Notes under the pieces: generated by a model
Told to the model about the DNA's origin: nothing
Seen by the model: only the letters and a program-made list of their open reading frames with translations
Databases searched by the model: none
Assembly (NCBI GenBank): GCA_025765615.1
Contig: JAIVFJ010000039.1
Location: 1-64,000 of the forward strand
DNA length: 64,000 nt
DNA from: Zopfochytrium polystomum
Lineage: Eukaryota; Chytridiomycota; Chytridiomycetes; Chytridiales; Chytridiaceae
Direction of reading: 5' to 3'
Program-made: the position numbers and the translations under genes
Shown here: positions 3,425 through 61,800 of the stretch, one piece after another
Position numbering within the stretch: the stretch's first letter is position 1
Layout of the letters: each line of letters starts with the position of its first letter

Positions 3425-4216
3425 GTGAAAAAGTGGGTATACACTCTTTTATTTGAGGTCACAGGCTTGACGGCCTGTCGGCCTCACAAGTCGGTAGCAT
3501 TCAGTCCTGATGGGCAGTTTGTTGTGTCTGGAAGTTGGGACAAGACAGTCAGGATTTGGAATGCTTCCACTGGACAGGAGCTGCATGCGCTGAAGGGACA
3601 CAGTTGGATAGTCTTTTCTGCAGCATTCAGTCCTGATGGGCAGTTTGTTGTGTCTGGAAGTTGGGACAAGACAGTTAGGATTTGGAATGCTTCCACTGGC
3701 CAGGAGCTGCATAAGGTGGAGGGACACAGTTGGATAGTCTCTTCTGCAGCATTCAGTCCTGATGGGCAGTTTGTTGTGTCTGGAAGTTGGGACAAGACAG
3801 TTAGGATTTGGAATGCTTCCACTGGCCAGCAGCTGCATAAGCTGGAGGGACACACTGATCATGTCACCTCTGCAGCATTTAGTCCTGATGGGCAATCTGT
3901 TGTGTCTAGAAGTTGGGACAAGACAGTCAGGATTTGGCATGCTTCAACTGGCCAGAAGTTGCATGAGCTGGAGGGTTTTTCTGCATTCAGTGGTGATGTC
4001 GCTGCTGCAAGTCTGTCACACAATTGTAGTGCATGGATGTGGACAGAAGAACCGCTGCAGAGTAAATCTGTGATAAAAAATGGTGTTTGGTGCATCTTTG
4101 ATGTCGCAAAAGTCAGCTGCTGGCTTCCTCCTGAGTTTCGTGGCGACTTTCAGCTCTTCTCAAGGCAAACTGCTTTTATTCTTGGTGAAGGCTTTTGTTC
4201 TGTTATAAAAGTTTGA
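3425..4216 (+). CDS. WD40-repeat protein fragment (HET-E/NLR-type near-identical repeats)
   Basis: The 263-residue frame holds four WD40 repeats of exactly 42 residues (126 bp), beginning near 3500, 3626, 3752 and 3878. Each has the pattern FSPDGQFVVSGSWDK then TVRIWNASTGQ and a GH dipeptide. The first three are almost identical at the DNA level, the pattern of recently amplified or concerted WD40 repeats in fungal HET-E/HET-D-like NLR proteins. A fifth repeat is decayed (ends WMWTEE). The tail CWLPPEFRG resembles the LPPEYR segment that often closes such fungal WD40 arrays. No NACHT or kinase domain lies upstream, and about 25 residues before repeat 1 look non-homologous. This is therefore a 5'-truncated piece or a short gene whose true start exon is unseen. 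WD40 identity is sure; function is inference. Confidence 0.7.
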   Translation: MKKWVYTLLFEVTGLTACRPHKSVAFSPDGQFVVSGSWDKTVRIWNASTGQELHALKGHSWIVFSAAFSPDGQFVVSGSWDKTVRIWNASTGQELHKVEGHSWIVSSAAFSPDGQFVVSGSWDKTVRIWNASTGQQLHKLEGHTDHVTSAAFSPDGQSVVSRSWDKTVRIWHASTGQKLHELEGFSAFSGDVAAASLSHNCSAWMWTEEPLQSKSVIKNGVWCIFDVAKVSCWLPPEFRGDFQLFSRQTAFILGEGFCSVIKV

Positions 4217-14153: not shown

Positions 14154-16194
14154 TCAAGGATGGGTGGGTATGAGCAAGGTCAGCTGGGAGGAGGGGCACG
14201 TCCATTGGTTGAAAGCAGGGATTCGTGAAGGGAGCTGGATTGAAAGTGGAGTGGCGGGAGGTGAGGAGTGGGAAAGGTGTGGGTGTGAAAACGGTGGTTG
14301 TGGAAGGTGAGTTAACAAAGTAGATGGGCTGGGAGGGTCGAGTTGCAGTAGCAGTTGTGCGGCTGCTGATGGGGACTGTGTAGGTGGAGTGTGCAAGGGA
14401 AGTTGGATTGTAGGGAGAGATGTGCTTGCTGCAGGGGTAAGAGAATGGGGGGGAGCCAATGGGGCAGCCAAGGCATTGGACCAAGTGGAAATTGTGGGAG
14501 GAAAGGTGAAGGCATTCAGGGAGCCTGGAGTAGTGATGAGAAAGGAGTTGGGGGTTTGGGAGAGTGTGAGTCCAGTTAACAATGCAGAAGAATTCCACTT
14601 GTGGTGGGGTCATCAGACAGGAAAAAACTGCCACAAGCAAGGGGGGGAATGGTGAAGGGGATCCAAAGAAGAAGGGTAAAAGGGATTGTGAAGAGGACCA
14701 TCAGGAGGGCTGTGGTAAAAGACTGGAGAGCCAAAGGTGGGAGCAGCAAAAATAAAGGTCTTAATGATGTGGTACACTTCACAGAGTTTGTCAGGGAGAG
14801 AGCTGTCTTTGTAGGAAGGACTGGTGAGGCAGGAGGTCAAAAAGTTGTTCAAAAAAGAAGACTGAGTGTGAACGGAGAGTGGGAAGCACTTTGAGAAAAA
14901 TATGCCAAGGAACTAATGAGTTGATGGAGTGAGCGTGAACAGAAAATAGGGGTGGACCAGAGTATTGGAAGGATGTTTGTTGGTTAAAAAGGAGGGGAAT
15001 GAGAGATTTGGTGAAGTGTTTTTTTGGCTGGGACAAGGGTAAGGGATGTGAGAAAACTGGAGCTCCAGAGGCCAGGTCAAGTTGGAGGAGGTGCATCATG
15101 ATACGGCTTATGTGGCCAATGAGAGAGGGTGAGTTCAAGCGAGAGTTGAGGTCAACAATCATGTCAGAGCAGTATTCATTGTAAAAGTCAGGGAAGTTAT
15201 GGGTCATGGGGTGATGGAGGAGGGCATTGGGAAAAGAGGTGCAGTAGCCAACCAGGCATTTGAAGGTTTTGCGACAGAGTGTGGTGAGGTTGTTGAGGAA
15301 AGTACGGGGGAGAATGGCAGTTTTCCGCAGAAAGCGGACACATGGGAGGAGAGACGTTATGGATGAGGTAAGAAGCAATTTTGTCACCCATCTTTTTGTG
15401 TTTGATAATGTCAAGGAAATTGGTGGTGGAAAGGATTTTGCTGCTGTGGCTGCTGAGCTCGTACCGTCTCCTGTGAAGTAGTTGCCTAGGTGTCGAAAGG
15501 TAGTGTTTGGGGGGTGGATGGGAAGGACTGTGGTGCCCCAGTTGATGGTGGTAGGTGCTGATCGCGGGGTGTTGACGGCGGAGATGAAGATTTTCTTGGT
15601 GTTAGACTCGATGTCGTTTTGTGACTGGTACTCAAAGAGGAGTTTGGCCTGAAGCTGCAGATCCTCCAAGGTGCTGGAGAGGGTGTTGGTGTCGTCGACA
15701 AGGGCAAAGCCAGTAACAGAGACAGGGGGTGGGGGGTTGAAGAATTGGACAGGGAAGTTACAAGGGGTGGGAACTGAGAAAATGAAACTGGTGGTACAAC
15801 GATCAAGAACGCAAAGAACAGGGTCCCAAAAGATACGCCAATCAAGGGGTCCCTCAAGGGAGCCTTGCTGAATCATAGTGCCAATGGGGAAGGAAGGGGA
15901 TGGGCCAAAAGCTGTGATGACAGAGGAACGAAAACGACATTGGGAATTGACACGCATGCGAACATAAGAAGAGGGGAGGTGAATACGTTCCCAGGAGGCA
16001 ATGAGGCCAGCAACAGGGGCGCAGTCAAAAGCTTTCTTAATGTCGTTGAGGAGAAAGTATAAGGGCTGTTTAGTGGATTGGGCAAGGTCAAGGGCGTAGC
16101 GTACAAGGTGGAGAGGCGGGTCAGGAGAAGAGCCAGGTAGGGCAGAGAAGTTGCGACCACCACCACCCCCCACCACCTTGCCACTGCCCTCCAC
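14154..16194 (-). mobile_element. 3' half of a non-LTR retrotransposon, RT blocks to C-terminus
   Basis: A 467-residue open frame (14791-16194) begins in the middle of an RT domain. It has NFSALPGSSPDPPLHL, then DIKKAFD (catalytic block A), IQQGSLEGPL (block B), and ALVDDTNTL (the FADD box as LVDD, block C), followed by thumb-like and C-terminal sequence. Further open sequence continues to about 14154 in another frame. The missing upstream RT blocks are found on the opposite strand at 18.9-19.2 kb. The style (N-x3-NF-ALPGSS) resembles LINE-like RTs common in Mucoromycota and other early fungi. The coding frame is unusually well kept for a truncated copy. Confidence 0.75.
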
Positions 16195-16204
16195 CGCCTT
16201 CCCA

Positions 16205-16640
16205 CTGCCAGATCAACGTCAGATCAACGTCAGATTGTTGTCAGATCGTCAGATCATCATCAGATCGACTGCAGATTGACTCCAGAACCCTCCACCACCA
16301 CCCCCCACTGCCTTGCCACCGCCAGATTGACATCAGATCTTCATCAGATCGTCAGACCATCGTCAGGTCAACGTCAGATTGACTCCAGATCATCAGATTG
16401 ACATCAGATCTTCATCAGATTGACTCCAGATCATCAGATTGACGTCAGATCTTCGTCAGATTGTCACATCATCATCAGGTCAACAGTCAGGTTTTTCGTC
16501 AGATTGTCTCCAGATCATCATATCATCGTCAGATTGTCGCCAGATTGACTCCAGATTGTTACCAGAACGCCCAATTGTTGTCAGATTGCCAGATCATCAT
16601 CCAATTGTCGTCAGATCATCAGTCAGATTGACTCCAGATT
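16205..16640. repeat. Degenerate minisatellite of CAGATTGAC/CATCAGATC-type words
   Basis: About 435 bp of imperfect 9-10-bp words (cagattgactc, catcagatc, gtcagatcttc) are interrupted once, near 16291-16325, by a copy of the ccaccaccccccactgccttgccacc block that also lies at 16160-16205. It sits exactly between the two opposed LINE halves. Confidence 0.75.
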
Positions 16641-16649
16641 GCTGCCAGA

Positions 16650-19240
16650 TTGCCTCCAGAAATCACTTTCCTCGCCCCCAAACCAGACTGCATCACCCCC
16701 TTCACCACCACAACCACATTGCAACCACATCACAACCTTTGTGCTGAATTGGGATTGGCACCCCCCTATTTCATGAGCAGCCCACCTCCCTCCATGTTCT
16801 TCGGCACCCATGCTGATCAACACATATTGACAATCACCACTCAGCCAGACCCCACTATTGCCCCACTCACTGAACTTGACATCCTACGCTTCACCTCCAC
16901 TTGCAACCTCACCATCCGACAGCGGCCCTTGCTCTCAAAGGACCAGACTTCTTACTCGCTCCGCCTTCTGCGTCCTTTGTCGGACGAACAGGCTGCCTGT
17001 CTTCAGAACACATCCCCACACATTAAATTTTCTTACACCTGTTGACTACCAGCCGCCGCCACAGAATTCACCAACGAACCTGCCAACCAACTCGTCCTCC
17101 AACACCTGGCTCCTGGAACTACTGGAAAAAACTTTGATGAGCAAAAGGACTCCCTGCGTCATGCAATCACCTCTGCTTTATCCTCCTGTGGCTCCATAAT
17201 GGCTATTCATTTTGCACACCACCAGCTTTCCGCCTCCGCATCTGCCACAGTTCTTTTTGACGGCCCTCCTCACAATCCCCCTCAGTTCATAACTATTCTG
17301 GGTGCAGGTGTCACAATTCGACCACTGGAACCTTCTGCAGAAATCCAGCAGCAAATCAGTGATGAAAAGCAACGCACAGCTGTCCTTTATAACATTTGTC
17401 GCTCCACAAGTATCTATGACCTTGAGGCCATCCAATATGAGTTTGGGTGCACGTCAGTTCGCATTCCAGGTTTCTTCAACTCAGCAAAGGGCACCGCTGG
17501 CCTTTCGTTGTCTGCCCATTTTGTTTTTACAACCCAGGGCATTGATGTTGCAAAAAACTAACCAATCAGTTGTCTTCAATGGCCGTGCCCTCCCATTTCA
17601 CCCACTCCAAAAGGAAGATTTCACTCCCTTCCCCTGCTGTCGCTGTTGTGGAAACTCCAACCATACCTCAATCTTGCAAAACTGGCCGCCCCTCTGGCTC
17701 ACTCCTTAACCAAGCCACTTCAGCAGATTCCAGAGACAACAGCCAGACAGCTCAGGCCCCTCCTGACACCACAACTCCCCCACCTGTCCCGCCTGCCCCC
17801 CCTTCTGTCCCTCCTCCAGAGCTGCAGTCAATCTTGAAGGTCCTTGAAAACATCCAGCAACAGCTTCACGCACAACAGACCTCCTTGCGCACAGAGCTGA
17901 AAGAGCATCAGCCTCAGTACGCACTGACATCCAAAAACTCACCACTCAGCTTACCCAACTTGAGCCAATCCCTGCAGCACTGGAACACGGCTTAGCAAAG
18001 GTGGACCACGACATTCAGAGACTTGCAGCTGCTGCAGCCAATGTGGATACTTCACTCAAAAACCATGCTGGCGCCATCCACAACCTAAATCAGCAAGTCA
18101 CCACACTGGAGCCACTCACTGCACAATTGGACAGCTGCCTCACCACAGTGGACACAACCACCCAGCTCCTCAGCTCTCGCCTCCGGACGATTGAAGAATA
18201 GTTGAAATACAATGACCCGATTGATGAGGACCTTGACGACTGTTCCTCCGCTGAACCTTCTTCTACTACTACCGTCCCAGCTCAATCAGCTGTCACCACA
18301 CACTCAAGCTCCAGTTCCTCTTCAACTCCTCCCAACAGAACTGCCCCCAAACCTGCCCCAAACCTGCCCTGAACCTGCTGCCAAACCTGCCCCAAAAACT
18401 GCCTCAAAAACCAGGAACACTGCCTCAACTTGACCAATATTCTTATTCATTCTTTTGTGAAAGCCCCTTTGCTATTGATATCACTCTTATTTCTTCAAAA
18501 AAAAAAAAAAAAAAAAAAAACAGAGACATTATTAGCAGGACTTCATGCACCCTTAGTCAACTATGTCAACTAGCCCCGTGATGTTTTACTCCCCGCCCTC
18601 AACCGCCATCGCCAGGCCATCTACTGTGCCCAATGCCAGGCAACATCCTCAACCGCACACGCAGCAACTCTAGCATCGACCACATTCACTATACTACTGC
18701 CGAAGGTCCCTCAATCACCCACAATCCTGACCTTGTCCCTGGTATCTGCCAACAACAGGTTGAACACTGGTTTCGCCCTCGTACCCTCACTCCCTTCCCA
18801 CCATCCTCTCCATTTCACTCTGAGATGCAACCCCGTCCCCACATCCCCCCAGATCTTTTCTCCAAGATTATGCTGCCCCCTTCTGCCAACGACGTCAAAA
18901 ACGCTCTCACATCTCTTGCCTCAAACAAAGCCCCAGGCCCCTCCCAAATCTCCACAGAGCTTCTCCTCACAGCTGGTCCTGATGCTCTTGCATTCTTCTC
19001 CTCCCTCATCATTCGCTCTTTTCTCTTCCTTGACATCCTGGACTTTTGGGCATCTTCCTCCATTTTCCCCATACCCAAGAAAGCTGCGTGGGGTGGTGAC
19101 ATCACTAATCTCTGTCCAATCAGCCTCTGCGAACTTGCTGCCAAAGTTGTTCAATCCATCCGTCTTTCTTGTATCTCTTCCATCCTCTCTCCTCACAATG
19201 TACTCCTTGGTGGAGGGTGCAGTCTTGAGTGTCTCTTGAC
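16650..19240 (+). mobile_element. 5' part of a non-LTR retrotransposon, ORF1 and first RT blocks
   Basis: ORF1-like sequence runs at about 16650-18201 in several frames. A CCRCCGNSNHT motif (near 17630; C-x2-C-x4-H, last Cys missing) looks like a gag knuckle. A Pro-rich linker and a coiled coil follow (17830-18201: QSILKVLENIQQQLHAQQ, HAGAIHNLNQQVTTLE). A 24-nt A-run at 18497-18520 separates this from 18633-19240. That stretch has the first RT blocks: VKNALTSLASNKAPGPSQIS, SSSIFPIPKK, CPISL and SPHNVLLGG. The frame then stops where the opposite-strand half (16194) would take over. No endonuclease domain was found between, so an internal deletion is likely. Confidence 0.65.
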
Positions 19241-30459: not shown

Positions 30460-31683
30460 TCAGTTCGCGACCCACTTCAGCGGGGTCTGGAAAATGCACG
30501 AGCTGGTGCCGGCCTTTCCGTCAGTGTGAGCGGGGAACTGCTCGCAGATGAAGGTGAGGTTGAGCGTGTTTGCGACCTGGACGTTGTTGAAGATGGCGGT
30601 GTCGCCCTTTTCGCTGTTGACGCCGGCGATGGCCTCGCCGCCGATGCCGTGGATGCGGACGTTGTCCATGACGACGTGGCGGTCGGGGTAGCCGCAGCCG
30701 CCGCATGAGCGGTAGAGCTTGCCCTTCATCTGCTCGGTGTAGAAGGCGTCGATGTCGGTGAGGTAGACGGTGCCGCCGCCGTTGTGCTGGACGCCCTTGT
30801 CCTTGAAGCCCCAGATGGCGCCCTTTGTCCACGTCATTTTGCAGTCTTTGCAGGTGGTGTCGTCCTTGAGAGACCATGAGTCTTCGCAGGTGCGCTCGAA
30901 CCAGACGTTCTTGAGGGTGCAGCTGCCGAGGCAGTGGACCGAGTCGAAGACTTCTTCGCCGATGAGAACGTTCTGGAGGGTGGCGTTGTTTTCGCTGGTG
31001 ATGGATCGAATCGGGTGGAAGAGAAGGGTCAGGCTTTAGCGGGGAGCGCACTTCAAGTATATGAAAGCTGAAATCGGTACTTACAGCTAAATGAATGAAG
31101 AAGCACGTGCAGGGATGGGACAGGGTTCAAGCAGGATAGCAATGATTCGTCAGGCCAAGTCAAAAAAAAAAAAAAAAAAGTATAAACTCACGATGAAGAT
31201 GGTATCCTTGGTGTCCGCCTCCACCGTCAAACAGTTGTTGGCCGGGCGGTATCCCTTCCCCCTGTCGTAGCGGAGCATACCACCATCGAAAATGGTATTC
31301 TCGTAGATCTTGACTGACGCGCTGCACGACCTTCCGCCGGTCGCCTTTGGGAAGATGGCGGGCAGCCCGACGGGCGGGCCGTTCGTGGACGAGACGCAAG
31401 TCGTCGGGGTCGGGGCGGGGGATCCCGGTGCGGCGGGGCACGGCCTCTTTGTGTTGCAGTTGGCGATGCAGGAGGTCTTTGCGTCGCCGGTTTTCGCGTC
31501 GCATTTTTTCAGGCACTCTTCCTGGCACTCTGCGGCGCGGCGGTAGAGCGGGACGGTCGGGGTGCCGCGGGCGTACATTTCGAGGCGGCCGTCGATGAAG
31601 CCGTCGGTGTCGGCGGGGGCGGCCTCGGCGAGGACCGCGGGGGCCGCAAAGAGGGCGAGGAGGGCGAGGACTCGGAGAAGCAT
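30460..31683 (-). CDS. Secreted pectate lyase, polysaccharide lyase family 3
   Basis: Exon 1 is 31192-31683. It has a signal peptide (LLRVLALLALFAAPAVLAEA), a Cys-rich/Pro linker (CQEECLKKCDAK, NCNTKRPCPAAPGSPAP), and the PL3 start FPKATGGRSCSASVKIYENT, FDGGMLRYDRG. Exon 3 is 30460-30994. It has ENNATLQNVLIGEEVFDSVH, LGSCTLKNVWFERTCEDS, GVQHNGGGTVYLTDI, GKLYRSCGGCGYPDRHVVMD, IAGVNSEKGDTA and the final FICEQFP. These are standard PL3 beta-helix motifs that cleave pectate by beta-elimination outside the cell. Joining exon 1 to exon 3 directly breaks the frame by two bases. A 2-nt exon CT at 31085-31086, flanked by TTTAG and GTAAGT, restores it and gives the expected FILENN sequence (342 residues total). 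Other acceptors either hit stops or give the wrong phase. Confidence 0.88.
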
Positions 31684-31810
31684 CGTGTTGGTAGTGTCTA
31701 GCTTGAGGTCGATTCTTCTTCTTTCTTATCTCACTGGACCTTATGTGTAAGAGATCTTCTATAGTCTGTTGAGGGTGGAAGAAAGAGGCATTGTGTCGGT
31801 CATCGCCGGG

Positions 31811-37970: not shown

Positions 37971-40900
37971 TCATTCAAACAGAACTGTCAAGTGTGGGGG
38001 AAACCCACTTCTCTCTGCTTTAGAGGTGAAGGCATTCCCTGAAATGAAGAGAATGTTATGTTAGTAAAACATTCAACAGCATGGACTTCACAAGACCTTT
38101 AAGATTCAATAAAGACAAGAAGGAGCAGTCTTGCAAGCCACGCTTCAAGGATTCATGTTCCCTATACAAACGGTGGTCTGGCCAATGCAGTTAGTGTCAA
38201 ACACCTAAAGGAAAAACACCCGAGGAAGAATACATAGAAACAAAGCAAACTCACTTTCCAAGTCAAGCGACTTCACCCTTTTGTTCACCTTGAGGGCAGC
38301 CAACAGCGTCTTGACGCTTTGCTCTGATCCATAAAGGCCCATTTCTGCAAACAAATTGTCAATGCAAAAATGATGCGGAGTTTGGGGTGGGGAAACAAAC
38401 TGAAATAATTTGACAATTACCAACTGCAAGTGGGTTCAATTCAGAATGATCAAGCCAGACCATTTGAGAGAGTCGCACAGTGAACAAAAGCGAAAAAAAA
38501 AAACATCGAGAAGAAAAAAAATTGGGTCAGAAATTGGTGAGCAGGCCAACTCAAACACAAAACACCCCAACGCAACCCATAATTTTGAACGGGGTTTCTG
38601 CAGAATCAACCATGTCTTGGAAAAACAAAGTGATGCACTCACCCCCTGCAGGTTGTTCCAGTTCAGAATGTTCCGACAAAGCCAGGCCATTTGAGAGAGT
38701 TACGCAGTGAACACAAGTCGAAAAAAAAAGAAGACATCAAGAAGAAAACAAGATGGGTCAGAAATTGTGAGCAAGCCAACTCAAACTGAAAAACCCCAAT
38801 GCAACCAACAGTTTTGAATGGGGTTTCAGCACAATCAATCATGTCTTGGAAAAAGAAACTGATGCACTCACCAACTGCAGATTGTTCCAGACCACAATTG
38901 TTGCGTCAAGTCAGGCCGTTGAAAGTTGCGCAGAGAACACAAACCGAAAAAAAAAGACATCAAGAAGTAAAAAGATGGGTGGGAAATTGGTGAGGAAGCC
39001 AACTCAAAAACAAAACCCCCCCAATGCGACACATAATTTTGAATGGGGTTTCTGCAGAATCAATCATGTCTTGGAAAAACAAAGTGATGAACTCACCGTC
39101 TGCAGGTTGTTCCAGTTGTACAGTGAAACAAGTCGGAAAAATAAAGACATCACGAAGAAATCAAGATGGGTCAGAAATTGGTGAGCAAGACAACTCAAAC
39201 ACAAAACCCCCCATTGCAACCCATAATTTTGAATGGGGTTCTTTGAAAAACAAGAGATGTACTCACTCCCTGCAGGTTGTTCCAGGTTAGAATGTTCCGA
39301 CAAAGCAGAGAGTTGCACAGAGAACACATGTCGAAAAACAAGATAAGAAAAAAGATGGGTCAGAAATTGGTGAGGGAGTCAACTCAGACACAAAACCCCC
39401 CCAATGGGGTTTCTGCAGAATCAACCATGTCTTGGAAAAACAAAGTGATGAACTCACAGTCTTCAGGTTGTTCCAGTTCAGAATGTCCCAACAAAGCCGG
39501 GCCGTTTGAGAGAGTTCCACAGAGAACACAAGTCGAGAAAAAAAGAAGACACCAAGAAGAAAACAAGACAGATCAGAAATTGGTGAGCAAGCCAAATCAA
39601 ACACAAAACCCCCCAATTCGACCCATAAATTTAAAGGGTTTTTGCAGGATGAACCATATCTCGGAAAACTAATAATAATGAACTCACCAACTGCAGGTTG
39701 TTCCAGTTGAGAATGTTCCAAAAAGCCAGGCCATTTGAGAGAGTTGCACAGAGAACACAAGTCGAAAAACAAGAAGGCATCAAGAAGAAAAAATGATGGG
39801 TCAGAAATTGGTGAGGAAGCCAACTCAAACACAAAACCCCCCCATTGAACTGATAATTTTGAATGGGGTTTCTGCAGAATCATTCATATCTTGGAAAAAC
39901 AAAGTTATGCACTCACCCTCTGCAGGTTGTTCCAGTTCAGAATGTTCCGTCAAAGCCAGGCCGTTTGGAGAGTTGCCCAGAGAACACAAGTTGAAAAAAA
40001 AGGAGACGTCGAGAAGAAAAAAAGATGCGTCAGAATTGGTCACTGAGTCAACTCAAACAGAAAACCCCCCCAATGCCACCCATAATTTTGAATGGGGTTT
40101 CTGCAGAATCAACATTGTCTTGGAAAAAGAAAATGATGTACTCACTCCCTGCAGGTTGTTCCGGTTCAGAATGTTCCGACAAAGCAGAGTGTGGTGCAGA
40201 GAAGACAAGTCGAAATAAAAAGAAGACATCAAGCAGAAAAAGAGATCAGTCAGAAATTGGTAAAGTAGCCAACTCAAACAGAAAACCACCCCAATGCAAC
40301 CCATAATTTTGAATGGGGTTTCAGCAGTATCAACCATGTCTTGGAAAAACAAAGTAGCGCACTCACCAACTGCAGGTTGTTCCGGTTCAGAATGTTCCAA
40401 CAAAGCCAGGCCGTTTGAGAGAGTTTTTTTTTTTTTGTTTGCACAGAAAACACAGGTCGAAAAAAAGAAGACATCAAGAGGAAAAAAAAGATGGGTCAGA
40501 ATTGGTGAGCAAGCCAACTCAAACAGAAACCCCTCCTAATACAACTTTTGAATGGGGTTTCTGCAGAATCAAACATTTCTTGGAAAGAAAATAATGGACT
40601 CACAGCCTGCAGGTTGTTCCAGTTCAGAATGTTCCAAGAAAGCCAGGCAGTTTGAGAGAGTTGCGCGGAGAACACAAGTCGAAAAAAAAGAAGACATCAA
40701 GAAGAGAACAAGATGGGTCAGAAATTGGTGAGCAAGCGAACTCAAACAAAACCCCCCCAATGCGACCCACAATTTTGAATGGGGTTCTGCAGAATCAACG
40801 ATGTCTTGGAAAAACAAAATGATGCACTCACCAACTGCAGGTTGTTCCAGTTCAGAGTGTTCCGACAAAGCCAGGCCATTTGAGAGAGTTGTGTAGAGAG

Positions 40901-43383
40901 CAGAAGTGAAAATAAAGATGACATCAACAAATGGCATCAAGAATAAGTGAGAACACCGATCAGATCGCAACTACTTGCAAAGTCAACATACATGCTGATT
41001 GAGGGGGTGGGGATTCGATTTGGTTTTTCATGCATCCAAATGGAGAATTGAGTGAAGGTTTGTGTCTGCATCATCTGCTGGAAGAATGTTTTGGCATTCA
41101 TACCTGGTATTGCTATGAATGGTGAAGTTAGGAGTGTGTTTTTTGAGGTGAGTCATTGCAAAATATTTCTCACGTGCTGGCATTTTGGTCATTTAGAACA
41201 CGGACGAGAAAAAACACGCCTGGCTTACAAAGAATTTTCAAATGTTGCACTGTTGTGTTCGTTGCCAAAGCCTCGTGCATTTGCACTTTTTCACCCTCTG
41301 TCAGTTCCTTGAACATGCAGCTGGCTTGGTCCCATCCTCCTGCAACAATCCTGTGCTTCACTTTATCCTCTAGACTCTGTTGCTGGCTTTGTTTCTCTTT
41401 TTTGTAAGTTAATACACATGCCTGACATGAATCTTCTTCATTCTCACTGGCAATCCGGCCTTTTTCTTTGATGTGCCGAAGTTCTTCCTCAGTGGAACCA
41501 ACAGCAAATCGAAACACGTCTGCCAAAGTGCTTCCAGGAGGAGTACGCTTCACAAACACAGAAAAAGCAGACAGAGGACAGGCAGTCTTAAATGCTTTTC
41601 CACATTTTTCCTGCAGCAGATCTTCCTTCACTTCCTTGAATGAGTCTCCATGCAGAATGGTGGCTTCCAGCGCAAACGCCAGTTCAGACCAAGGTATCTG
41701 GAATGCTGTCTTGCCAGTGGCAGCGTCCACTCCCCAGTGCCGCCAAAACTTGACAACGTCTGGGTGGGTTTTAGCGAGGTCTGTGAGGATTTCATCCGCT
41801 GGCCCAAGTTGGGGGGATGGTTTCACTGGCTGATGGGCACCGTCGCCAGGTGGTTGCAAAGACAACTTTTCCATGTTGGAAGTGATGGGTAATTGGGAAG
41901 CAGATTGGCGTGAATGAATCAGAAAACAGAACGAGTGTCACACAAGTCAATATTTTCTTACCTGGCCTGACCGTCCAGCGTTATTGGAGATGAATGTTTG
42001 GGCCATGTAGCCCTCTGAATAGTACCCAAGAGTGCCCTCGTGCTGGGCGGCAGGTTTGCCGACAGGTTTTGGCATTGTGGGACTTGCCGCTGCAGCGGCG
42101 GCAAGATGAATCACTGGTGTGGCCACTCTTGAAGCAACTGCTTGGGCGTCATTGAATCCATCAAGCAAAAGTTCAAGAGTGCCTACAATCTGCGGAAAGA
42201 GTGGACGGGCTGCAGGATCAACTTGCCAGCACTGCTGAAATAAATCTCGAATATTGCGTCCCTGCTTTATGGCAGAGAATATGTTTTCATCCAGATGGGA
42301 CAAGGCTTCTCTGCGAAAGTTGTCATCCTTGGAGGCCAATGGAAACTGGGATGGGTCCATCTCGTGGAGGGGAACACCATACACTCCAACCCAGCTGACA
42401 ACCTCCGTGAGGAGAACAGCAAAAGAGAACACATCGTTTGCTTTCGTGATCTGAGTGATTGAGATTCATTCCAATATTAGCGGGGAAGTGCACAGGAGCC
42501 TTAATCAAGGGAGAAAACTCACTTTCTTCTTGAATCCGGTCAGCTCTGGGGCCATCCAGTATGTGGATCCCCCCACATGGGACACAGTGCTGCGAGACCG
42601 AATCTCATTCTTCATTTTGCTCAAGCCAAAGTCCGCAATTTTCGCCACCAGGGGCGCATTTGGGCCAGACTGCGTCAAGAGCACGTTCATGCTCTTCAGA
42701 TCATTGTGGAGAATGTCCAATCTGTGCAGAAAACTCATCCCGACAGACACTTGGTGCAGGAGAGAAATGCGATGATTGACTGGCACCAACGAGACATCAG
42801 TCTTGCGATAGTAATCAAAGAGAGAGCCAACAGAGGCAAGCTGGGTTGTGTGCAAACAAAGATGAGAATGGGTAACAGTATGGGATTGTTAGCTCAGCAG
42901 AAAGCCTGCAAGTAATTGCTTATGTGCCAACTCACCTCCATGACCAACGAGAACTTTGCGCCGTTCTCTTCAACCAGTAGTCCATAGAAACCAATAACAA
43001 ACGGCGAAGGGACCCTGCTGGTGCGACATTCTATGATGGTTCTTGCCTCGTCAAGCAACTCCCTATGCGTCTCAGGATGCATCCCAGTCGCCTCTATTTG
43101 GAGTTGCTTGATGGCAACTGGGATGTGGCGTTGATAGGTGCCACGGAACACTTGGCCGAAACTGCCAGCACCAATCAGAGCTGTTTCGCGCGCAATATCG
43201 TGAGGAGAAATCGTGAGGTTCACAAGCTGAAAGGAGAAAATAAAGAATTAACGAATGTTTCGAGTGTCGCATGGTTTTGTGCGGGTTGGGGTGGATAAAA
43301 AATTCTATACTGAATCAAGTCGACAAGAGGAAGCGTGTGCCTTACTTCGGCGCTGTCCATGGTCGAGTCGATTGATTTCACAG
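37971..43383 (-). CDS. Kinase-LRR protein, copy 1 (TKL-like, non-RD), with microexon array
   Basis: Exons on the minus strand: 43346-43383 (ATG at 43360, a donor-adjacent MDSAE; an acceptor just upstream implies a further 5' exon), 42936-43226, 42523-42840, 41962-42450, 41229-~41865, then 3-nt exons (38421-40834), 38255-38344, 38097-38177 and 37971-38038. The kinase has GAGSFGQV, VAIK, HNDLKSMNVLL (HND instead of HRD, so non-RD), IADFGLSK and YWMAPEL. It is followed by an unrecognised domain (DEILTDLAKTHPDVVKFWRH, EDLLQEKCGKAFKTACP) and then LRRs beginning VQHLKIL. The LRR introns all fall at one position, phase 1. All indels between the two copies are multiples of 3, about 674 residues if spliced fully. 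The exon 5 acceptor of copy 2 (CAG) is lost here, so the start of exon 5 is uncertain. Likely a signalling or immune-type receptor kinase; inference. Confidence 0.8.
38402..40960 (-). repeat. Tandem array of 12 splice-site/3-nt modules, copy 1
   Basis: Modules of 170-237 bp lie between kinase-LRR exons 41229 and 38344. On the minus strand each has a pyrimidine-rich stretch, usually a CTGAAC branch-like word, CTGCAG (or CTGAAG/TTGCAG), a variable triplet, then GTGAGT (GTAATT in the last). Triplet positions and minus-strand sequences: 40832 TTG; 40604 GCT; 40367 TTG; 40146 GGA; 39917 AGG; 39688 TTG; 39458 ACT; 39267 GGA; 39097 ACG; 38872 TTG; 38643 GGG; 38421 TTG. The bodies are diverged, yet the splice motifs stay. 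As 3-nt exons they preserve phase 1, and with all included the frame stays open. As a single undivided intron, the flanking exons would join as T|AA, a stop. Confidence 0.8.
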
Positions 43384-51940: not shown

Positions 51941-54900
51941 TGTAAACAGTCAACTCTGAGTGAGTGAGTGAGGGAGTGAATGTAGTGGAGATGTGTGATT
52001 GTGGGTAGTCCTTCTCTCCACTTTGGAGAGAAAGAGAAAAAACTGTTATGAATAATTGATACATAATGATGATATGCATGCTGTAATAGTTGCTAGGCAA
52101 GCGTGACTGGCACAGGGAAAACCCCTCTCCTATATTATCTGCTTTAGCAGAGGAGGAGGAAAACTGTTAACACTGGGTTTCTGTTCCACTTAATACTCGG
52201 AGTATTTGTCAACAGCACAAGCCAGCGCCCAGGTCTGCATTGGCACTGGCTCACTCTCCCATGGGCATTGTGAGAACGATAACTGACAGTCACAATAGGT
52301 TCAGGTCCGTCTTGTGCCTCTTGCTGCTAACCAGTCAGTTCTGCCTAACACCCCTGCGCACAATGATCATGGGTGTAGCACCCATTATGCAAAGTGTGCG
52401 TAAGCGTCTGAGGCTTCAACTGAAAGGGTGTTCGAAAGGTCGGAGCAGGGTCAGAGGCCAAGTAGTGAGGTAAGTTGCTTGTGCTGAGATGTCGAGAGTG
52501 GTTTTGTGAGAATGTCTGTGATCTGGTTGCTGGTTGGTATGTAGCGTACAGTGATCTCTCCAGTGGCTACGCCTTGTCAGAGGAAATCAGCACGTATGTC
52601 AATGTATTTTGTGCGAGGATGTGTTAGAGGGTTGAGCACTAGTGCAATTGCAGATTGATTGTCCTCAAGGATTGGAAGTGGCTGCTGCAGGGATTTGCAA
52701 CTCTGATAATACGGCGAGGAGCCATTGTGCTTCTTGGAATGCTTCAGAAAGTGAGTAGTACTCTGATTCTGTGGAGGATAGCGATACGCAATGTTTGCGT
52801 GAGACCCAAGAGACGGCGGCGTCCCGCTATGTGGTCTGCCATTGGAGCTAGGCTCTCTTCAGGTTTATCTTTGTCTTCGCCAAGGACAATAGCAAACGTG
52901 TCAGGGTTGCAACCACAGTTGTCATTGTTGTCTTCCATATCTTGGGGAAGAGTTGGGGGTTGATCTGAGGTGTTTGTCGATGATGATGGTGGCTGTCCCC
53001 CCTGGAAGCCTGGCGCAGTTGCTGGCAGGTACGAGAGGAGGAAGCACCATCAGGAGGGGAGTTGGATAATTGATGGTAAGAGTCAACTGGTGGCTCGACA
53101 GGATTGAAAGAACGAGAGTTGTCAGTATCAGGAAAATCTGAAAAATCATCAGAAAGAAGTTAAGAAATCAGAATTAAGAGGTTGAAGCTTAGTGTCACTG
53201 CGGACAAGGCCAGGAAAGACATGCTCATGCAAGTTGTAGTGGTGTGTCTGAAGAATTGTCAGGAACAGGGCAGGACAGGACAAGGCAGACAAGGAACTGA
53301 GAGGAGTGATGATTGTATTGGAAACAATAATTCACTTGAGGGATGGGACAGGTCCCCCCATCCCCCTTTTATACCTTTTGAGATTCTTCCTTGTCAAGAC
53401 TCAAAGAAAGTTCCAGAAAGAGCAATTAGTAATACAATGATACCAATGATACCAATGACAACAAGACAAGTCAGGAAAGCAAAGAAGGTTCCAGAAGGTT
53501 CCACAAGGTTCCATGAAGGAATGTTCTAGAAGGTTCCAGAAGGTTCCAGAGGTTTCCAGAGGGTGATTCATAACAAGAATGGTCTGTCCATCCAAGTCGT
53601 AACTGAGGGCAATGGACTTGCTGTCTGTGTCAAAACCCAAGAAGGGACCAAGTGAGGCCTGAGGAGAGAACTTGGTCTTGCATGAGTTTGCAGGTTCTGT
53701 GTACTCATTGTTGAGTGTGACAATGAGGCAGCCAAAAATTCCGAGATGACGTAGGCTGGGTTTTTGGCCTTGGGAATATTCGAATGGAATTCAACCAGTG
53801 TGAGTGTGTTGCACGTGATTGCGCAGGAATGAAGCATGGCGTATTGTGTAGGACCAGAAGAACTGTGGAAGCTGAGCTTCAATCAAGAGACAGGAAGCAA
53901 TGCAGGTGATGACCTTGATGGCATTTTCTGCGACACCATCACCCTCCTTGACATAAGGAACAGAAGGCCGAAAGCCGATGGGAGGTTGCTGGTTGATGGG
54001 AGTTGCTCGACAGTGCAGTGGTGACAAATAGTGACTTTAGGAGTTGTTTGATGCTGTGCTTGATGGAAAAAGGGTGTCCAGGATAGAAGATGTGTGTTGC
54101 ACACAATGCTTGTTGCAAGCTGATTGATAGCGGAAAAATTCTGAAAATTGGAATACCAGGTTGGCACTGTTGAAGAGCAACTGTGCCAAATTTCAGGCTG
54201 AGAATCAAAGTTTTGGTGGTGCTGTCCCTTGGGGAGTGTTGGAGAACGAAATGGAGGGAACTTAGAGCAAATTGATGTGTGCAGCTGGGGTGACTTGTCA
54301 CACAAGAAAGGACAAAATGATGGTTGGAGGTAGTGGAAGTGGTAGTTTGACTTTTGGGCCTCCTTAGCAAAATTGCTTCTAGCTCCTGCTGTAGGGCTTG
54401 TGGCCGAGCGCATTAGGTATCAATGGAAAGAGCAGAAGCACGTAAATATAGCTGTGTAAGGGTGTCCCTTGGTCGCCTCCCATTTTTGAGAAGATGTCTT
54501 GCAAAGTTGAGGAAGAGTTTATTGACTTTGAAGGCCAATCAAATTCCGAAGAGACAACATAGAGAGCTGCGTAATAGCTTGTTGAAAAGAGGAGAATCAT
54601 AGCTTTCAAATGCACTATTGCAAGCCCGGTTTGAATGACGGAGTCGGCTGGGAGAGGGCTTTGAAAAATTTTGGCCTCCCAAACGAAAGGGTCTTTAAAG
54701 TTGAGCTAGGCTGATTCTGTTTGTTGGAGGTGGTAGAGATTCTTGTTCTGAGCTAGAATCTGTGGTTGATGCAGCCAGATAGCTGGCACGCTGTTGTGTA
54801 AACAGTCTACTCTGAGTGAGTGAGTGGAAGGAGTTAATGAAGTGGAGATGTGAGCTTGTGGGTGGTCCTTCTCCCCAACTTGGAGAGAAAGAGAAAAAAC

Positions 54901-55890: not shown

Positions 55891-58800
55891 TCAAAACAGA
55901 ACTGACAGGCGTGAAGGAAACCCACTTCTCTGCTTTTCAGTTGTGAAGCCATTCCCTGAAATGAAGAGAATGATGCGTTAATACAAAGTCCAACAACAAG
56001 GATTTTTCAAGACCTCTAATATTCAAAGAAGACAAAAAGGAGCAGTCTTGCAAGCCACTCTTCAAGAATTCCCGTTTCCACACCATACGGTGGTCTGGCC
56101 AGTGCAGTGAGAAGGACAAAGTCCAAAGGAAAAAGACAAAGAAACAGAGCCAACTCACTTTCCAAGTCAAGCGACTTCACCACTTTGTTCATCTTGAGGG
56201 CGACCAACAACGTCTTGACACTTAACTCCGATCCATAAAGACCCTTTTCTGCAATCAGGTTGTCAAGGGTTAGGGTTAAGGCGGTTTGTGTCCACAGAAC
56301 ATAAGTTGAAAAAAAAAGAGGTTTTCAAGAAGAAAAAAAGATGGGTCAGAAAATGGGGAGCAAGCCAACTCAGACACAAAACCCCCCCAATTGCAACCCA
56401 TAATTTTCAATGGGGTTTCTGCAGAATCAACCATGTCGTGGAAAAACAAAGTGATGCACTCACGGTCTGCAGGTTGTTCCAGTTCAGAATGTTTCGACAA
56501 AACCAGGCCGTTTGAGAGAGTTGTGCAGAGAACACAAGTGGAAAAAAAAGGAAACATCAAGAAGAAAACAAGATAAGTCAGAAATTGGTGAGCACGCCAA
56601 CTGAAACACAAGACTCCCCCAATGCAACCCATAATTTTGAATGGGGTTTGTCCAGAATCAACCATGTCGTGGAAAAACAAAGTGATGCACTCACAGGCTG
56701 CAGGTTGTTCCAGTTCAGAATGTTCCGACAAAGCCAGGCCGTTTGAGAGAGTTGTGCAGAGAACACAAGTGGAAAAAAAAGGAAACATCAAGAAGAAAAC
56801 AAGATGAGTCAGAAATTGGTGAGCACGCCAACTGAAACACAAGACTCCCCCAATGGAACCCATAATTTTGAATAGAGTTTCTCCAGAATCAACCATGTCG
56901 TGGAAAAACAAAGTGATGCACTGACCGACTGCAGGTTGTTCCAGTTCAGAATGTTCCGACAAAGCCAGGCAGTTTGAGAGAGTTGTGCAGAGAACACAAG
57001 TGGGAAAAAAAGGAAACATCAAGAAGAAAACAAGATGAGTCAGAAATTGGTGAGCACGCCAACTGAAACACAAAACCCCCCCAATGCAACCCATAATTTT
57101 GAATGGGGTTTGTCCAGAATCAACCATGTCGTGGAAAAACAAAGTGATGCACTCACGGTCTGCAGGTTGTTCCAGTTCAGAATGTTCCGACAAAGCCAGG
57201 CCGTTTGAGAGAGTTGTGCAGAGAACACAAGTGGGAAAAAAAGGAAACATCAAGAACAAGACAAGTTGAGTCAGAAACTGGTGAGCACGCCAACTGAAAC
57301 ACAAAACCTCCCCAATGCAACCCATAACTTTGAATGGGTTTCTGTAGAATCAACCATGTCTTGGAAAAACAAAGTGATGCACTCACAGGCTGCAGGTTGT
57401 TCCAGTTCAGAATGTTCCGACAAAGCCAGGCAGTTTGAGAGAGTTGTGCAGAGAACACAAGTGGAAAAAAAAGGAAACATCAAGAAGAAAACAAGATGAG
57501 TCAGAAATTGGGTGAGCACGCCAACTGAAACACAAAACCCCCCCAATGCAACCCATAATTTTGAATGGGGTTTGTCCAGAATCAACCATGTCGTGGAAAA
57601 ACAAAGTGATGCACTCACAGGCTGCAGGTTGTTCCAGTTCAGAATGTTCCGACAAAGCCAGGCCGTTTGAGAGAGTTGTGCAGAGAACACAAGTGGAAAA
57701 AAAAGGAAACATCAAGAAGAAAACAAGATGAGTCAGAAATTGGTGAGCACGCCAACGGAAACACAAAACCCCCCCAATGGAACCCATAATTTTGAATAGA
57801 GTTTCTCCAGAATCAACCATGTCGTGGAAAAACAAAGTGATGCACTGACCGACTGCAGGTTGTTCCAGTTCAGAATGTTCCGACAAAGCCAGGCCGTTTG
57901 AGAGAGTTGTGCAGAGAACACAAGTGGGAAAAAAAGGAAACATCAAGAAGAAAACAAGATGAGTCAGAAATTGGTGAGCACGCCAACTGAAACACAAAAC
58001 CCCCCCAATGCAACCCATAATTTTGAATGGGGTTTCTGCAGAATCAACCATGTCTTGGAAAAACAAAGTGATGCACTCACGCCCTGCAGGTTGTTCCAGT
58101 TCAGAATGTTCCGACAAAGCCAGGCAGTTTGAGAGAGTTGTGCAGAGAACACAAGTGGAAAAAAAAGGAAACATCAAGAAGAAAACAAGATGAGTCAGAA
58201 ATTGGTGAGCACGCCAACTGAAACACAAAACCCCCCCAATGCAACCCATAATTTTGAATGGGGTTTCTGCAGAATCAACCATGTCTTGGAAAAACAAAGT
58301 GATGCACTCACGCCCTGCAGGTTGTTCCAGTTCAGAATGTTCCGACAAAGCCAGGCAGTTTGAGAGAGTTGTGCAGAGAACACAAGTGGAAAAAAAAGGA
58401 AACATCAAGAAGAAAACAAGATGAGTCAGAAATTGGTGAGCACGCCAACTGAAACACAAAACCCCCCCAATGCAACCCATAATTTTGAATGGGGTTTGTC
58501 CAGAATCAACCATGTCGTGGAAAAACAAAGTGATGCACTCACAGGCTGCAGGTTGTTCCAGTTCAGAATGTTCCAACAAAGCCAGGCCGTTTGAGAGAGT
58601 TGTGCAGAGAACACAAGTGGAAAAAAAAAGGAAACATCAAGAAGAAAACAAGATGAGTCAGAAATTGGTGAGCACGCCAACTGAAACACAAAACCCCCCC
58701 AATGCAACCCATAATTTTGAATGGGGTTTCTGCAGAATCAACCATGTCTTGGAAAAACAAAGTGATGCACTCACGCCCTGCAGGTTGTTCCAGTTCAGAA

Positions 58801-61800
58801 TGTTCCGACAAAGCCAGGCAGTTTGAGAGAGTTGTGCAGAGAACACAAGTGGAAAAAAAAGGAAACATCAAGAAGAAAACAAGATGAGTCAGAAATTGGT
58901 GAGCACGCCAACTGAAACACAAAACCCCCCCAATGCAACCCATAATTTTGAATGGGGTTTGTCCAGAATCAACCATGTCGTGGAAAAACAAAGTGATGCA
59001 CTGACCAACTGCAGGTTGTTCCAGTTCAGAATGTTCCGACAAAGCCAGGCAGTTTGAGAGAGTTGTGCAGAGAACACAAGTGGAAAAAAAAGGAAACATC
59101 AAGAAGAAAACAAGATGAGTCAGAAATTGGTGAGCACGCCAACTGAAACACAAAACCCCCCCAATGGAACCCATAATTTTAAATGGGGTTTGTCCAGAAT
59201 CAACCATGTCGTGGAAAAACAAAGTGATGCACTGACCAACTGCAGGTTGTTCCAGTTCAGAATGTTCCGACAAAGCCAGGCAGTTTGAGAGAGTTGTGCA
59301 GAGAACACAAGTGGAAAAAAAAGGAAACATCAAGAAGAAAACAAGATGAGTCAGAAATTGGTGAGCACGCCAACTGAAACACAAAACCCCCCCAATGCAA
59401 CCCATAATTTTTAATGGGGTTTCTGCAGAATCAACCATGGCTTGGAAAAACAAAGTGATGCACTCACGGTCTGCAGGTTGTTCCAGTTGAGAATGTTCCG
59501 ACAATGCCAGGCCGTTTGAAAGAGTTGTCCAGAGAACACAAGTGGAAAAAAAAGGAAGACATCAAGAAATGGCATCAAGAATAAGGTGAGAAGGATGATC
59601 AGATCCCTGTTTCTTTGAAAGTGAACTTACATGCTGACGGAAGGTGTGGGGAATTTAATTTGGTTTTTTATGTTTTTCAGTGGAGAATTTAGTGAAGGTT
59701 TGCGTCTGCTGGAAGAATTTATTTTGGACTTAATACCTGGTATTGCTGTGAAAGGTGAAGTTAGGAGAATTTTTTTTGAGGTATGTCATTGGAAAAAAAT
59801 ATTTCTCACGTGCTGGTAGTGGGGTTATTTAGAAGATGGACGAGAAAAAAACACGCCTGGCTTACAAAGAATTTTCAAATGTTGCACTGTTGTGTTTGTC
59901 GCCAAAGCCTCGTGCATTTGCACTTTTTCATCCTCCGTCAGTTCCTTGAACGTGCAGTTTGCTTGGTCCCATCCTCCCGCAACAATCCTGTGCTTCACCT
60001 TATCCTCTAGACGGCTCTGTTTCTCTTTTTCGAAAGTTAATGTATGTGCCTCACTTAAATTTCCTTCGTTCTCACTGGCAGTCTGACCTTTTTCTTTGAT
60101 TTGTGGAAGTTCCTGCTTGGTTGGACCAACAGCAAATCCAAACACATCAGCCACAGTGCTCCCAGGAGGAGCACGCTTCACAAACCCAGAAAAAGCAGAC
60201 AGAGGACAGGCAGTCTTGAATGCTTTGCCACATTTTTCCTGCAGCAGATCTTCCTTCACTTTCTTGGTCGGGTCTCCATCCAGAATGGTGGCTTCCAGCG
60301 CAAAAGCCAGTTCAGACCAAGGCATCTGGAGGGCCGTCTTGCCTGTGGTAGGGTCTACTGCCCAGTGCCGCCAAAATTTGACAATGTCTGGGTGAGTCAG
60401 AGCGAGGTTGGTGAGGATTTCGTCAACTGGTCCAGGCGGTGAGGATGGTTTGAATGGCTGATGGTCACCGTCGCCAGGTGTATGCCGAGTCGCTCCCAGA
60501 GTTTGAGGCAGCGGAGGCAGACGCCGAGTCCCTTGCGGAAGCTGAGGCGGCGGAGGCGGACCCTGCAAAGACATCTTTTCCACGTTCGCAGTGATGGGCA
60601 ATTGGGCCTGATGGGAATCAGCGTGAAAGAATCAGAAAACAGAACCAGTGTCACAACAAGTCAATATTTTCTTACCTGGCCTGATCCTCCGGCATAATTG
60701 GAGCTGGGGGTCAACGTTTGGGCTATGTAGCCTGCAGAATAGTACCCAAGACTGCCCTCACCCTGGGCGCCAGGTTCAATGGTGGGTTTTGGCATTGTGG
60801 GATTTCCCACTGCAGCTGGCACAGGATGAAACACTGGTGTGGCCACGCTCGAAGCAACGGCTTTGGCACCATCAAATCCATCCAGCAACAGTTCAAGAGT
60901 GCTTGCAATCTGTGGAAAGAGTGGACGGGCTGCAGGATCAACTTGCCAGCATTGCTGAAATAAATCTCGAATATCACGCCCACGCTTTATGGCAGAGAAC
61001 ACATTTTCATCCAGGTCGGCCAAGGCTTCTCTGCGATAGTTGTCATCCTTGGAGGCCAATGGAAACTGGGATGGGTCCATCTCATGGAGGGGAACACCAT
61101 ACACTCCAACCCAGCTGACAACCTCCGTGAGGAGAACAGCAAAAGAGAACACATCGTTTGCTTTTGTGATCTGAGTGATTGAGTGATTGAAATTCATTCC
61201 ACTATTAGCGGGGAAGTGCACACAAGCTTTAATCAAGCGTGAAAACTCACTTTCTTCTTGAATCCAGTCAGCTCTGGGGCCATCCAGAATGCGGATCCTC
61301 CCACACGGGACACCGTGCTGCGAGACCGAATCTCATTCTTCATTTTGCTCAAGCCAAAGTCCGCGATCTTCGCCACCAGGGGCGCATTTGGGCCAGACTG
61401 CGTCAAGAGCACGTTCATGCTCTTCAAATCGTTGTGAAGGATGTCCAAACCATGCAGGAAACTCATGCCAACAGACACTTGGTGCAGGAGAGAAATGCGA
61501 TGATCGACTGGCACCAAGGAGATGTCAGTCTTGCGATAGTAATCAAAGAGAGAGCCAACAGAGGCAAGCTGGGTTGTGCGCAAACAAAGATGAGAATGGG
61601 TATTAGTATGGGATTGTTAGTTCAGCAGAAAGCCTGTAAGTGATTGCTTAGGTGCCAACTCACCTCCATGACCAACGAGAACTTTGCACCATCCTCTTCA
61701 ACCAGTAGTCCATAGAAACCAATGACAAATGGCGAAGGCACCCCGCTCATGCGACATTCTTTGATGATTCTTGCCTCGGCAAGCAACTCCCTGCGCGTCT

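Follow-up and report, generated by a model that had tools for sequence, protein, structure and literature searches.

A string of predicted 3-nucleotide exons encoding a putative hypervariable loop in a kinase gene family of the chytrid Zopfochytrium polystomum

The first 64 kb of the 398.6-kb contig JAIVFJ010000039.1 from the 80.2-Mb genome of the chytrid Zopfochytrium polystomum (the 64,000-nucleotide stretch analysed here, referred to as the window) contains, on its minus strand, a protein kinase gene (copy 1) in which a large exon and a short downstream exon are separated by an array of closely spaced splice-like signals. We find that this interval, 41229-38344, is best read as fourteen 3-nucleotide (3-nt) exons and one 9-nt exon, which would be spliced in order and would encode a hypervariable loop; we put the probability of this reading at roughly 0.83. 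That the triplets are exons had been proposed from the letters of the window by a sequence-only reading, and the proposal is now supported by the 3-nt length that is kept in paralogues with unrelated introns, by the lack of stops in 271 junction codons, by the conserved ends of the loop and by a peak of diversity at the triplets, while it is still something that we infer from genomic DNA.

Results

Copy 1 encodes, in order, a protein kinase, a linker, a domain without an above-cut-off Pfam match, the array and a short tail (Table 1). The exons on either side of the array are both in phase 1 (T/GTAAGC at 41229 and TTGCAG/AA ATG GGC at 38344, where a slash marks an exon boundary), as had been noted earlier, and all twelve of the minus-strand AG-NNN-GT modules listed by the sequence-only reading are present at their positions. 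The string does not begin with these twelve modules, however, since two further triplets, CAC and CAT, and a 9-nt exon candidate lie upstream, giving 14 triplets and one 9-nt exon. The 16 resulting introns measure 52-234 nt and have a GT start and an AG end in 16 of 16 cases; the modules are tandem repeats of about 229 bp, with a spacing of 170 to 237. Joining exon 5, CAC, CAATACCAG, CAT, the 12 triplets and the downstream exon yields ...HLKIL SPIPAFGFGKVDWNVGVEMGLYGSEQ..., so that the open frame expected of full inclusion is borne out in copy 1. A direct join of 41229 to 38344 creates a stop codon at the junction (T/AA = TAA).

Table 1. Coordinates of the predicted exons of copy 1 and of the copy 2 array in the window (slash, exon boundary)
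Feature	Position	Strand	Remarks
Exon 1, copy 1 (ATG)	43346-43360	-	splice consensus; translation matches NCBI model P0001
Exon 2, copy 1, kinase N-lobe	42936-43226	-	translation matches P0001
Exon 3, copy 1, kinase	42523-42840	-	translation matches P0001
Exon 4, copy 1, kinase C-lobe and linker	41962-42450	-	translation matches P0001
Exon 5, copy 1	41229-41865	-	ends ...CAT TTG AAA ATT CTT T/, phase 1
3-nt exon candidate CAC, first of array	41174-41176	-	AG/CAC/GTGAGA in 13/13 close members
9-nt exon candidate CAATACCAG	41104-41112	-	AG/9 nt/GTAT in 13/13 close members
3-nt exon candidate CAT	40992-40994	-	AG/CAT/GT in 13/13 close members
Predicted 3-nt exon TTG	40832-40834	-	first ~229-bp module
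Predicted 3-nt exon GCT	40604-40606	-	
Predicted 3-nt exon TTG	40367-40369	-	
Predicted 3-nt exon GGA	40146-40148	-	
Predicted 3-nt exon AGG	39917-39919	-	
Predicted 3-nt exon TTG	39688-39690	-	
Predicted 3-nt exon ACT	39458-39460	-	
Predicted 3-nt exon GGA	39267-39269	-	
Predicted 3-nt exon ACG	39097-39099	-	
Predicted 3-nt exon TTG	38872-38874	-	
Predicted 3-nt exon GGG	38643-38645	-	
Predicted 3-nt exon TTG, last of array	38421-38423	-	donor GTAATT
Downstream exon, copy 1, leucine-rich-repeat-like	38255-38344	-	/AA ATG GGC CTT TAT...
Next leucine-rich-repeat-like exon, copy 1	38097-38177	-	read by eye
Last coding exon, copy 1	37971-38038	-	stop TGA at 37971; read by eye
Copy 2 array, the window's second	56159-59866	-	upstream exon ends 59866; downstream exon 56248-56159
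Copy 2 head	CAC 59812; 9-nt exon candidate 59745-59737; CAT 59633	-	
Copy 2 triplets 1-7	ACC 59470, TTG 59239, TTG 59008, GGC 58777, CCT 58545, GGC 58314, GGC 58083	-	
Copy 2 triplets 8-14	TCG 57852, CCT 57621, CCT 57389, ACC 57159, TCG 56928, CCT 56697, ACC 56466	-	

Copy 1 belongs to a gene family, which we collected from the positions of a module anchor, GGAACAACCTGCAG-NNN-GTGAGT (145 genome occurrences at no more than one mismatch; none for the reversed control), together with two protein searches. The family comprises 13 close members with both flanks (copy 1, or W1; a second copy in the window, copy 2 or W2; L009-L012; and L014-L020) and two deep paralogues, L021 and L022, which both lie on contig C172 and match the upstream domain of copy 1 at 44% (L021) and at 34% and 54% in two pieces (L022). 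The downstream exon of copy 1 has 15 further matches in the genome, one at each fetched family locus. All 13 close members open the array with AG/CAC/, AG/9 nt/GTAT and AG/CAT/, and the number of predicted 3-nt exons per array ranges from 12 to 25 in 14 of the 15 arrays, with 11 in L018.

Since the copy 1 modules are tandem repeats, their repetition cannot count as independent evidence, and other motifs indeed recur with the modules in the same way, as clusters of antisense sites with a spacing of k = 6 illustrate. The two deep paralogues are free of this difficulty: Tandem Repeats Finder detected no repeat inside the L021 or the L022 array, and blastn comparisons (plus strand, E values up to 1) of these two with each other and with the other arrays gave just 14-23-nt matches. 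Sites of the form AG-N3-GT[ACG][AG]G number 17 in L021 and 22 in L022, against 0 (L021) and 0 to 3 (L022) for other spacings (0-2 and 4-15), means of 0.21 and 0.36 with maxima of 2 and 3 in 300 dinucleotide shuffles each, and 0 and 1 AG-N3-GT sites on the antisense strand. Across 102,925 control bases, counted on both strands, we found no cluster of at least four sites at gaps of 150 nt or less for any spacing from 0 to 12; single k = 3 sites in the control number 80, which makes them somewhat commoner than other spacings (39-72). Relaxing the gaps to as much as 300 nt brings up a single control cluster of four; it lies on the L021 minus strand at 8404-8059, away from the array, where AG and GTGAG are abundant, and is probably due to chance. 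The introns of the deep paralogues would measure 45-120 nt, and the median distance from an acceptor to the nearest upstream AG is 48 nt, versus about 26 expected. A strict gapped pattern run across the whole genome returned 0 matches and missed the known L021 and L022 series; because these lie in the same genome and escaped it, the zero is uninformative about other arrays.

The predicted exons also carry signatures of coding sequence. Stop codons were counted over 15 arrays with 256 triplets and 271 junction codons, leaving out the 9-nt exon; damaged copies were included and the irregular modules of L017 and L018 were excluded. With every triplet included, the frame stays open in all 15 arrays, with no stop in the 271 junction codons, and all 13 readings to which the 9-nt exon can be added stay open. 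When the order of triplets was shuffled within arrays, about 7.1 stops were expected, and 0 of 20000 shuffles were stop-free, or 1 of 20000 in a second run. Leaving out the six defective or irregular copies (L009, L010, L014, L017, L018 and L019) gave 16 stop-free shuffles in 20000, and 238 with the array ends fixed. Skipping the whole array, so that the flanks are joined, produces a stop in 12 of 15 loci.

The predicted peptide likewise has conserved ends. It starts with SP in all 15 arrays and finishes with [E/D/Q/N]xGL, followed by Y in 14 of 15 (M in L017). L021 ends ...TAFAEKGLYG and L022 ...SAFADNGLYG, differing by synonymous or conservative changes across introns that cannot be aligned; the last residues are spelled CTG/CCT/TTG/CTG/AG in L021 and CTG/CCT/TCG/CCG/AT in L022, mainly with third-position differences. 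At the other end, SPLP is encoded by separate triplets in L022 and by CAC plus the 9-nt exon in L011, L012 and L019, and this double spelling suggests that codon exons fused to form the 9-nt exon. The coding sequence next to the array on its upstream side is conserved: in the last 45 codons of exon 5, the ratio of mean pN to mean pS (nonsynonymous and synonymous differences) is 0.17 over 55 pairs from 11 members; L009 and L017 were left out of this set because of stops.

In contrast to these ends, the middle of the loop would be highly variable. In an alignment of 183 close-member modules over 229 columns, the triplet supplies the three most diverse columns (ranks 1, 3 and 2; pi 0.745, 0.679 and 0.705), while the module body has a median of 0.204, a 95th percentile of 0.504 and a maximum of 0.632. 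The zero diversity of AG and GT in this alignment arises by construction, because the modules were chosen by these bases. Using an anchor that omits AG and GT, AG-N3-GT was found in register in 169 of 174 modules, and the other five comprise three irregular modules, all from L018, and two intact ones that an anchor indel has moved out of register. An anchor on the opposite side gave 160 of 170, the misses including hits of the anchor at other positions of the body and the four irregular L017 and L018 modules.

Comparing modules in pairs, after dropping ten misaligned rows of the 183, we found 29 pairs whose bodies differ by less than 1%, of which 15 differ in the triplet and 14 share it; the differing triplets do so at one, two and three bases in 4, 3 and 8 pairs, respectively. 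At a body difference of 1-2%, the triplet differs in 81 of 101 pairs, and copy 2 holds modules that are identical in all compared body columns and yet carry GGC in one case and CCT in the other. The triplet differences between near-identical modules are not the pattern of single point changes. They would reflect either strong diversifying selection on a recombining pool of modules or a targeted replacement of triplets; recombination together with balancing selection can also yield such a pattern. An apparent enrichment of aromatic residues in the loop (Y, F and W make up 27% of 226 core residues) was considered and is not claimed, TGG occurring 14 times against 12.9 expected.

The kinase of these genes is clear, with PF07714 (Pkinase/PK_Tyr_Ser-Thr) matches of 139 bits in copy 1 and 149.7 bits in P0008, the database model for L021, at a cut-off of 23.1. 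The tail that follows the loop resembles leucine-rich repeats (LRRs): a profile built from three tails, searched against the PDB, matched DRC5 best (E value 9.6e-6) and, more weakly, NOD-like receptors (NLRs), LRRC34, tropomodulin and RNase inhibitor, and its 30 PDB matches up to an E value of 10 include some non-LRR chains, two of them at 0.004 and 0.014. LRR families in Pfam stayed below the cut-off, with LRR_6 at 17.1 bits versus 23.4 in the L021 tail and no match in the copy 1 tail, and neither NACHT nor ankyrin is among the listed Pfam matches for copy 1 and L021/P0008. An AlphaFold model of P0008, made with 7 sequences, has a mean predicted local distance difference test score (pLDDT) of 41. 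Two database searches of limited sensitivity (7 proteins at E values of 0.001 or less; 1 at 1 or less) returned no homologue outside Zopfochytrium.

Among the database gene models, P0001 agrees with the copy 1 translation up to the array, after which it continues past the donor and ends; P0003 and P0004 splice to the CAC acceptor and terminate after it; and P0008 uses the AG/CCT acceptor and places both flanks in one gene, with one intron read through. The CAC acceptor of P0003 and P0004, and the AG/CCT acceptor and joined flanks of P0008, would count in favour of an exon string.

L018 is 99.6% identical to copy 2 over 1603 nt, and the last seven modules stand in the same order (one of them, in L018, with 4 nt), while the earlier part differs in module number and heads; the two are possibly alleles or a recent duplicate. 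Telomere-like sequence (TTAACCCTAACCC) lies at 56270-56310, adjoining the copy 2 downstream exon on its upstream side, and similar sequence occupies the same place in L015, L016, L017 and L018. None of these loci showed the diverged module that usually closes the array, a TTG or CTG followed by a GTA donor. The modules mostly end in CTG AAC TGG AAC AAC CTG CAG, which would read as LNWNNLQ, an LRR-like string (38300-41260 and 56270-59560), as though the module derived from an old LRR exon. L013 (C109:118500-128400) is a decayed family remnant, in which four module remnants persist and the downstream exon is damaged. Four further loci match just a part of the upstream domain, and the three fetched (L023-L025) have no array at the threshold used.

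Elsewhere in the window, near-identical 126-bp units encoding WD40 repeats lie at 3496-3975 (92% match); fungal NLR families diversify repeats of this type by repeat exchange (PMC4986451). The window also contains a reverse-transcriptase-like open frame at 14794-16212, with PF00078 just above the cut-off; a second retroelement piece at 53404-53790, with SH3_retrovirus just above the cut-off; a pectate lyase gene (PF03211) over two open frames at 30463-31725, the second match being below the cut-off; and degenerate CAGATC/CAGATT tandem repeats with several nested periods at 16345-16660.

Discussion

As the sequence itself shows, every triplet is bounded by a 3' and a 5' splice site and thus supplies the bases of one codon, and the frame holds with any number of modules. 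In the model that these data support, the introns, being short (52-234 nt in copy 1 and 45-120 nt in the deep paralogues), would likely be recognised by intron definition and taken out one by one. This would leave a phase 1 loop of about 18 residues between the kinase-linked domain and the LRR-like tail, variable in the middle and conserved at its ends (SP..., ...xGL). The arrays of the close members suggest that loop length changes by tandem duplication or loss of a one-codon module of about 230 bp. Such a loop would likely serve as a diversified surface for recognition on a receptor-like protein of the kinase-LRR type, judging from the domain layout and the diversity, and it may possibly have a role in non-self recognition.

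A number of observations weigh against this model. None of the eight database models contains a string of 3-nt exons. Some copies are damaged, with disabling changes (stops or shifts) upstream of the array in L009, L017 and L019 and in the downstream exon of L014, while the downstream match of L010 ends short; moreover, four modules are irregular, one with 2 nt in L017, and two with 4 nt and one with a lost AG in L018. The deep arrays reach their totals of 20 (L021) and 25 (L022) through six weak-donor sites, three per array, which were added by judgement and spacing, and an alternative overlaps one of those in L022; as all six are 3 nt, they leave the frame unaffected. Of the 47 deep introns, 42 contain a branch-like motif, as scored with a broad motif set and without a control. 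The stop test weakens to 3.3 expected stops and 249 stop-free shuffles in 20000 when the first two and the last triplets are fixed; L021 and L022 alone show no stop-avoidance signal (9012 of 20000 stop-free, and 20000 of 20000 with the ends fixed); and phase 0 is likewise stop-free, whereas phase 2 has 9 stops.

The array could instead be an intronic minisatellite in one long 41229-38344 intron, with the splice-like motifs as unused passengers of repeat amplification, which would account for the tandem modules of copies 1 and 2 and for the other motifs, such as the antisense k = 6 clusters, that recur alongside. We regard this as unlikely, because the AG-N3-GT series persists without repeats in L021 and L022, the direct join makes a stop at most loci, AG and GT are kept in nearly all modules although the triplet they enclose is the most variable part, and the loop ends are conserved across introns that cannot be aligned. 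A coding minisatellite, considered in view of the long frames that stay open over the 231-bp units of copy 2, was rejected, as the spacing in copy 1 varies and the deep paralogues lack such units. The juxtaposed 3' and 5' splice sites of each module could also be ratchet points of recursive splicing, which would remove a long intron stepwise and leave no triplets in the mRNA. A zero-length AG/GT would suffice for that purpose, however, and here there are three nucleotides with coding signatures; once all triplets are removed, 12 of 15 loci have a stop; the total lengths of 1.8-5.2 kb are small for a need of recursive splicing, and we consider this explanation very improbable.

How the predicted exons would be used is a separate matter. 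Modules that are interchangeable in phase might be chosen so that exactly one triplet enters each transcript, a mutually exclusive choice of codon. One triplet used alone gives a flank stop for 69 of 256 triplets, and the conserved SP and AFA[E/D] ends require several ordered triplets, which makes this the least probable of the alternatives. The triplets might instead be alternative cassette codons, a variant of the exon-string model in which variable subsets would provide each gene with many isoforms of the loop. Every subset is in frame, skipping a single triplet makes a stop in just 6 of 256 cases, random inclusion at 50% gives a stop in 18% of isoforms, and the truffle nank genes provide a precedent with alternative splicing (PMC10197012 and PMC3689799). 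Against this, adjacent triplets never make a stop (0 of 241 at distance 1, with 3.3 expected), but stop-making pairs number 2, 5, 2 and 5 at distances 2-5, so that the order of triplets, on these small numbers, is apparently tuned for consecutive inclusion. We therefore hold cassette use to be a real possibility at somewhat less than even odds; the stop pattern, again in small numbers, favours consecutive and mostly constitutive inclusion over single-triplet choice.

On the side of evolution, a rather doubtful extension of the exon-string model is that the loop is diversified codon by codon, with module duplication adding a codon and the triplet being replaced as a unit while the intron stays unchanged. 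A triplet-targeted process, or very strong selection on a recombining pool, would then generate a repertoire like that of antibody loops, which splicing would assemble, possibly in combinations.

The truffle Tuber melanosporum is an ascomycete, and the chytrid family described here belongs to another phylum, Chytridiomycota. The sequence-only reading knew of no comparable run of 3-nt exons, but one is on record: the nank (NACHT-ankyrin) genes of this truffle are reported to contain tens of codon-sized, 3-bp microexons, which diversify the NACHT-ankyrin family by alternative splicing (PMC3689799, PMC4986451 and PMC10197012, citing Iotti et al. 2012, Fungal Biol 116:261-275). Both cases are fungal, involve an expanded paralogous family and 3-nt exons in series, and have been proposed to diversify a recognition domain. 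They differ in that the chytrid genes combine a kinase with an LRR-like tail, in the tandem 230-bp modules with measured triplet diversity of the chytrid arrays, and in that splicing is reported in the truffle and predicted in the chytrid.

The exons of the micro-exon genes (MEGs) of Schistosoma are symmetrical. They measure 3-81 bp, and each gene has 10 to 20 that are very short (PMC10526429); like the predicted exons of the chytrid arrays, they add protein variation through many very short consecutive exons. MEG exons, however, vary in length and their products are secreted, whereas the predicted chytrid exons are fixed at 3 nt (with one of 9 nt) at one site of a kinase gene whose coding sequence is not mostly made of very short exons, large kinase exons preceding the array. 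Plant microexons of 1-15 nt, such as the 1-nt exons of APC11 and VPS55, have GTRAGT donors and are similarly overlooked by annotation (PMC8831610); unlike the arrays described here, the ones reported there are single or two adjacent and conserved rather than long hypervariable codon series. In searches of an open-licence literature library we found the truffle precedent and no report of codon-sized microexon arrays in chytrids. The device is thus already on record in the truffle, and what is new is its predicted occurrence in another phylum and another protein family, where some arrays appear to represent a young stage of tandem modules and others an old, fully diverged one.

If this reading is true, the codon-sized exon string known from a truffle gene family of immune type would also have arisen, or been retained, in a fungal phylum that diverged early, and there in a receptor-like family unrelated to the truffle one. 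With up to about 25 consecutive 3-nt exons, such genes would be a hard test for the spliceosome, and they would expose a class of genes that annotation truncates. Because the introns between the codons serve as an internal yardstick, the diversification of the three bases of each exon would be directly measurable in this family.

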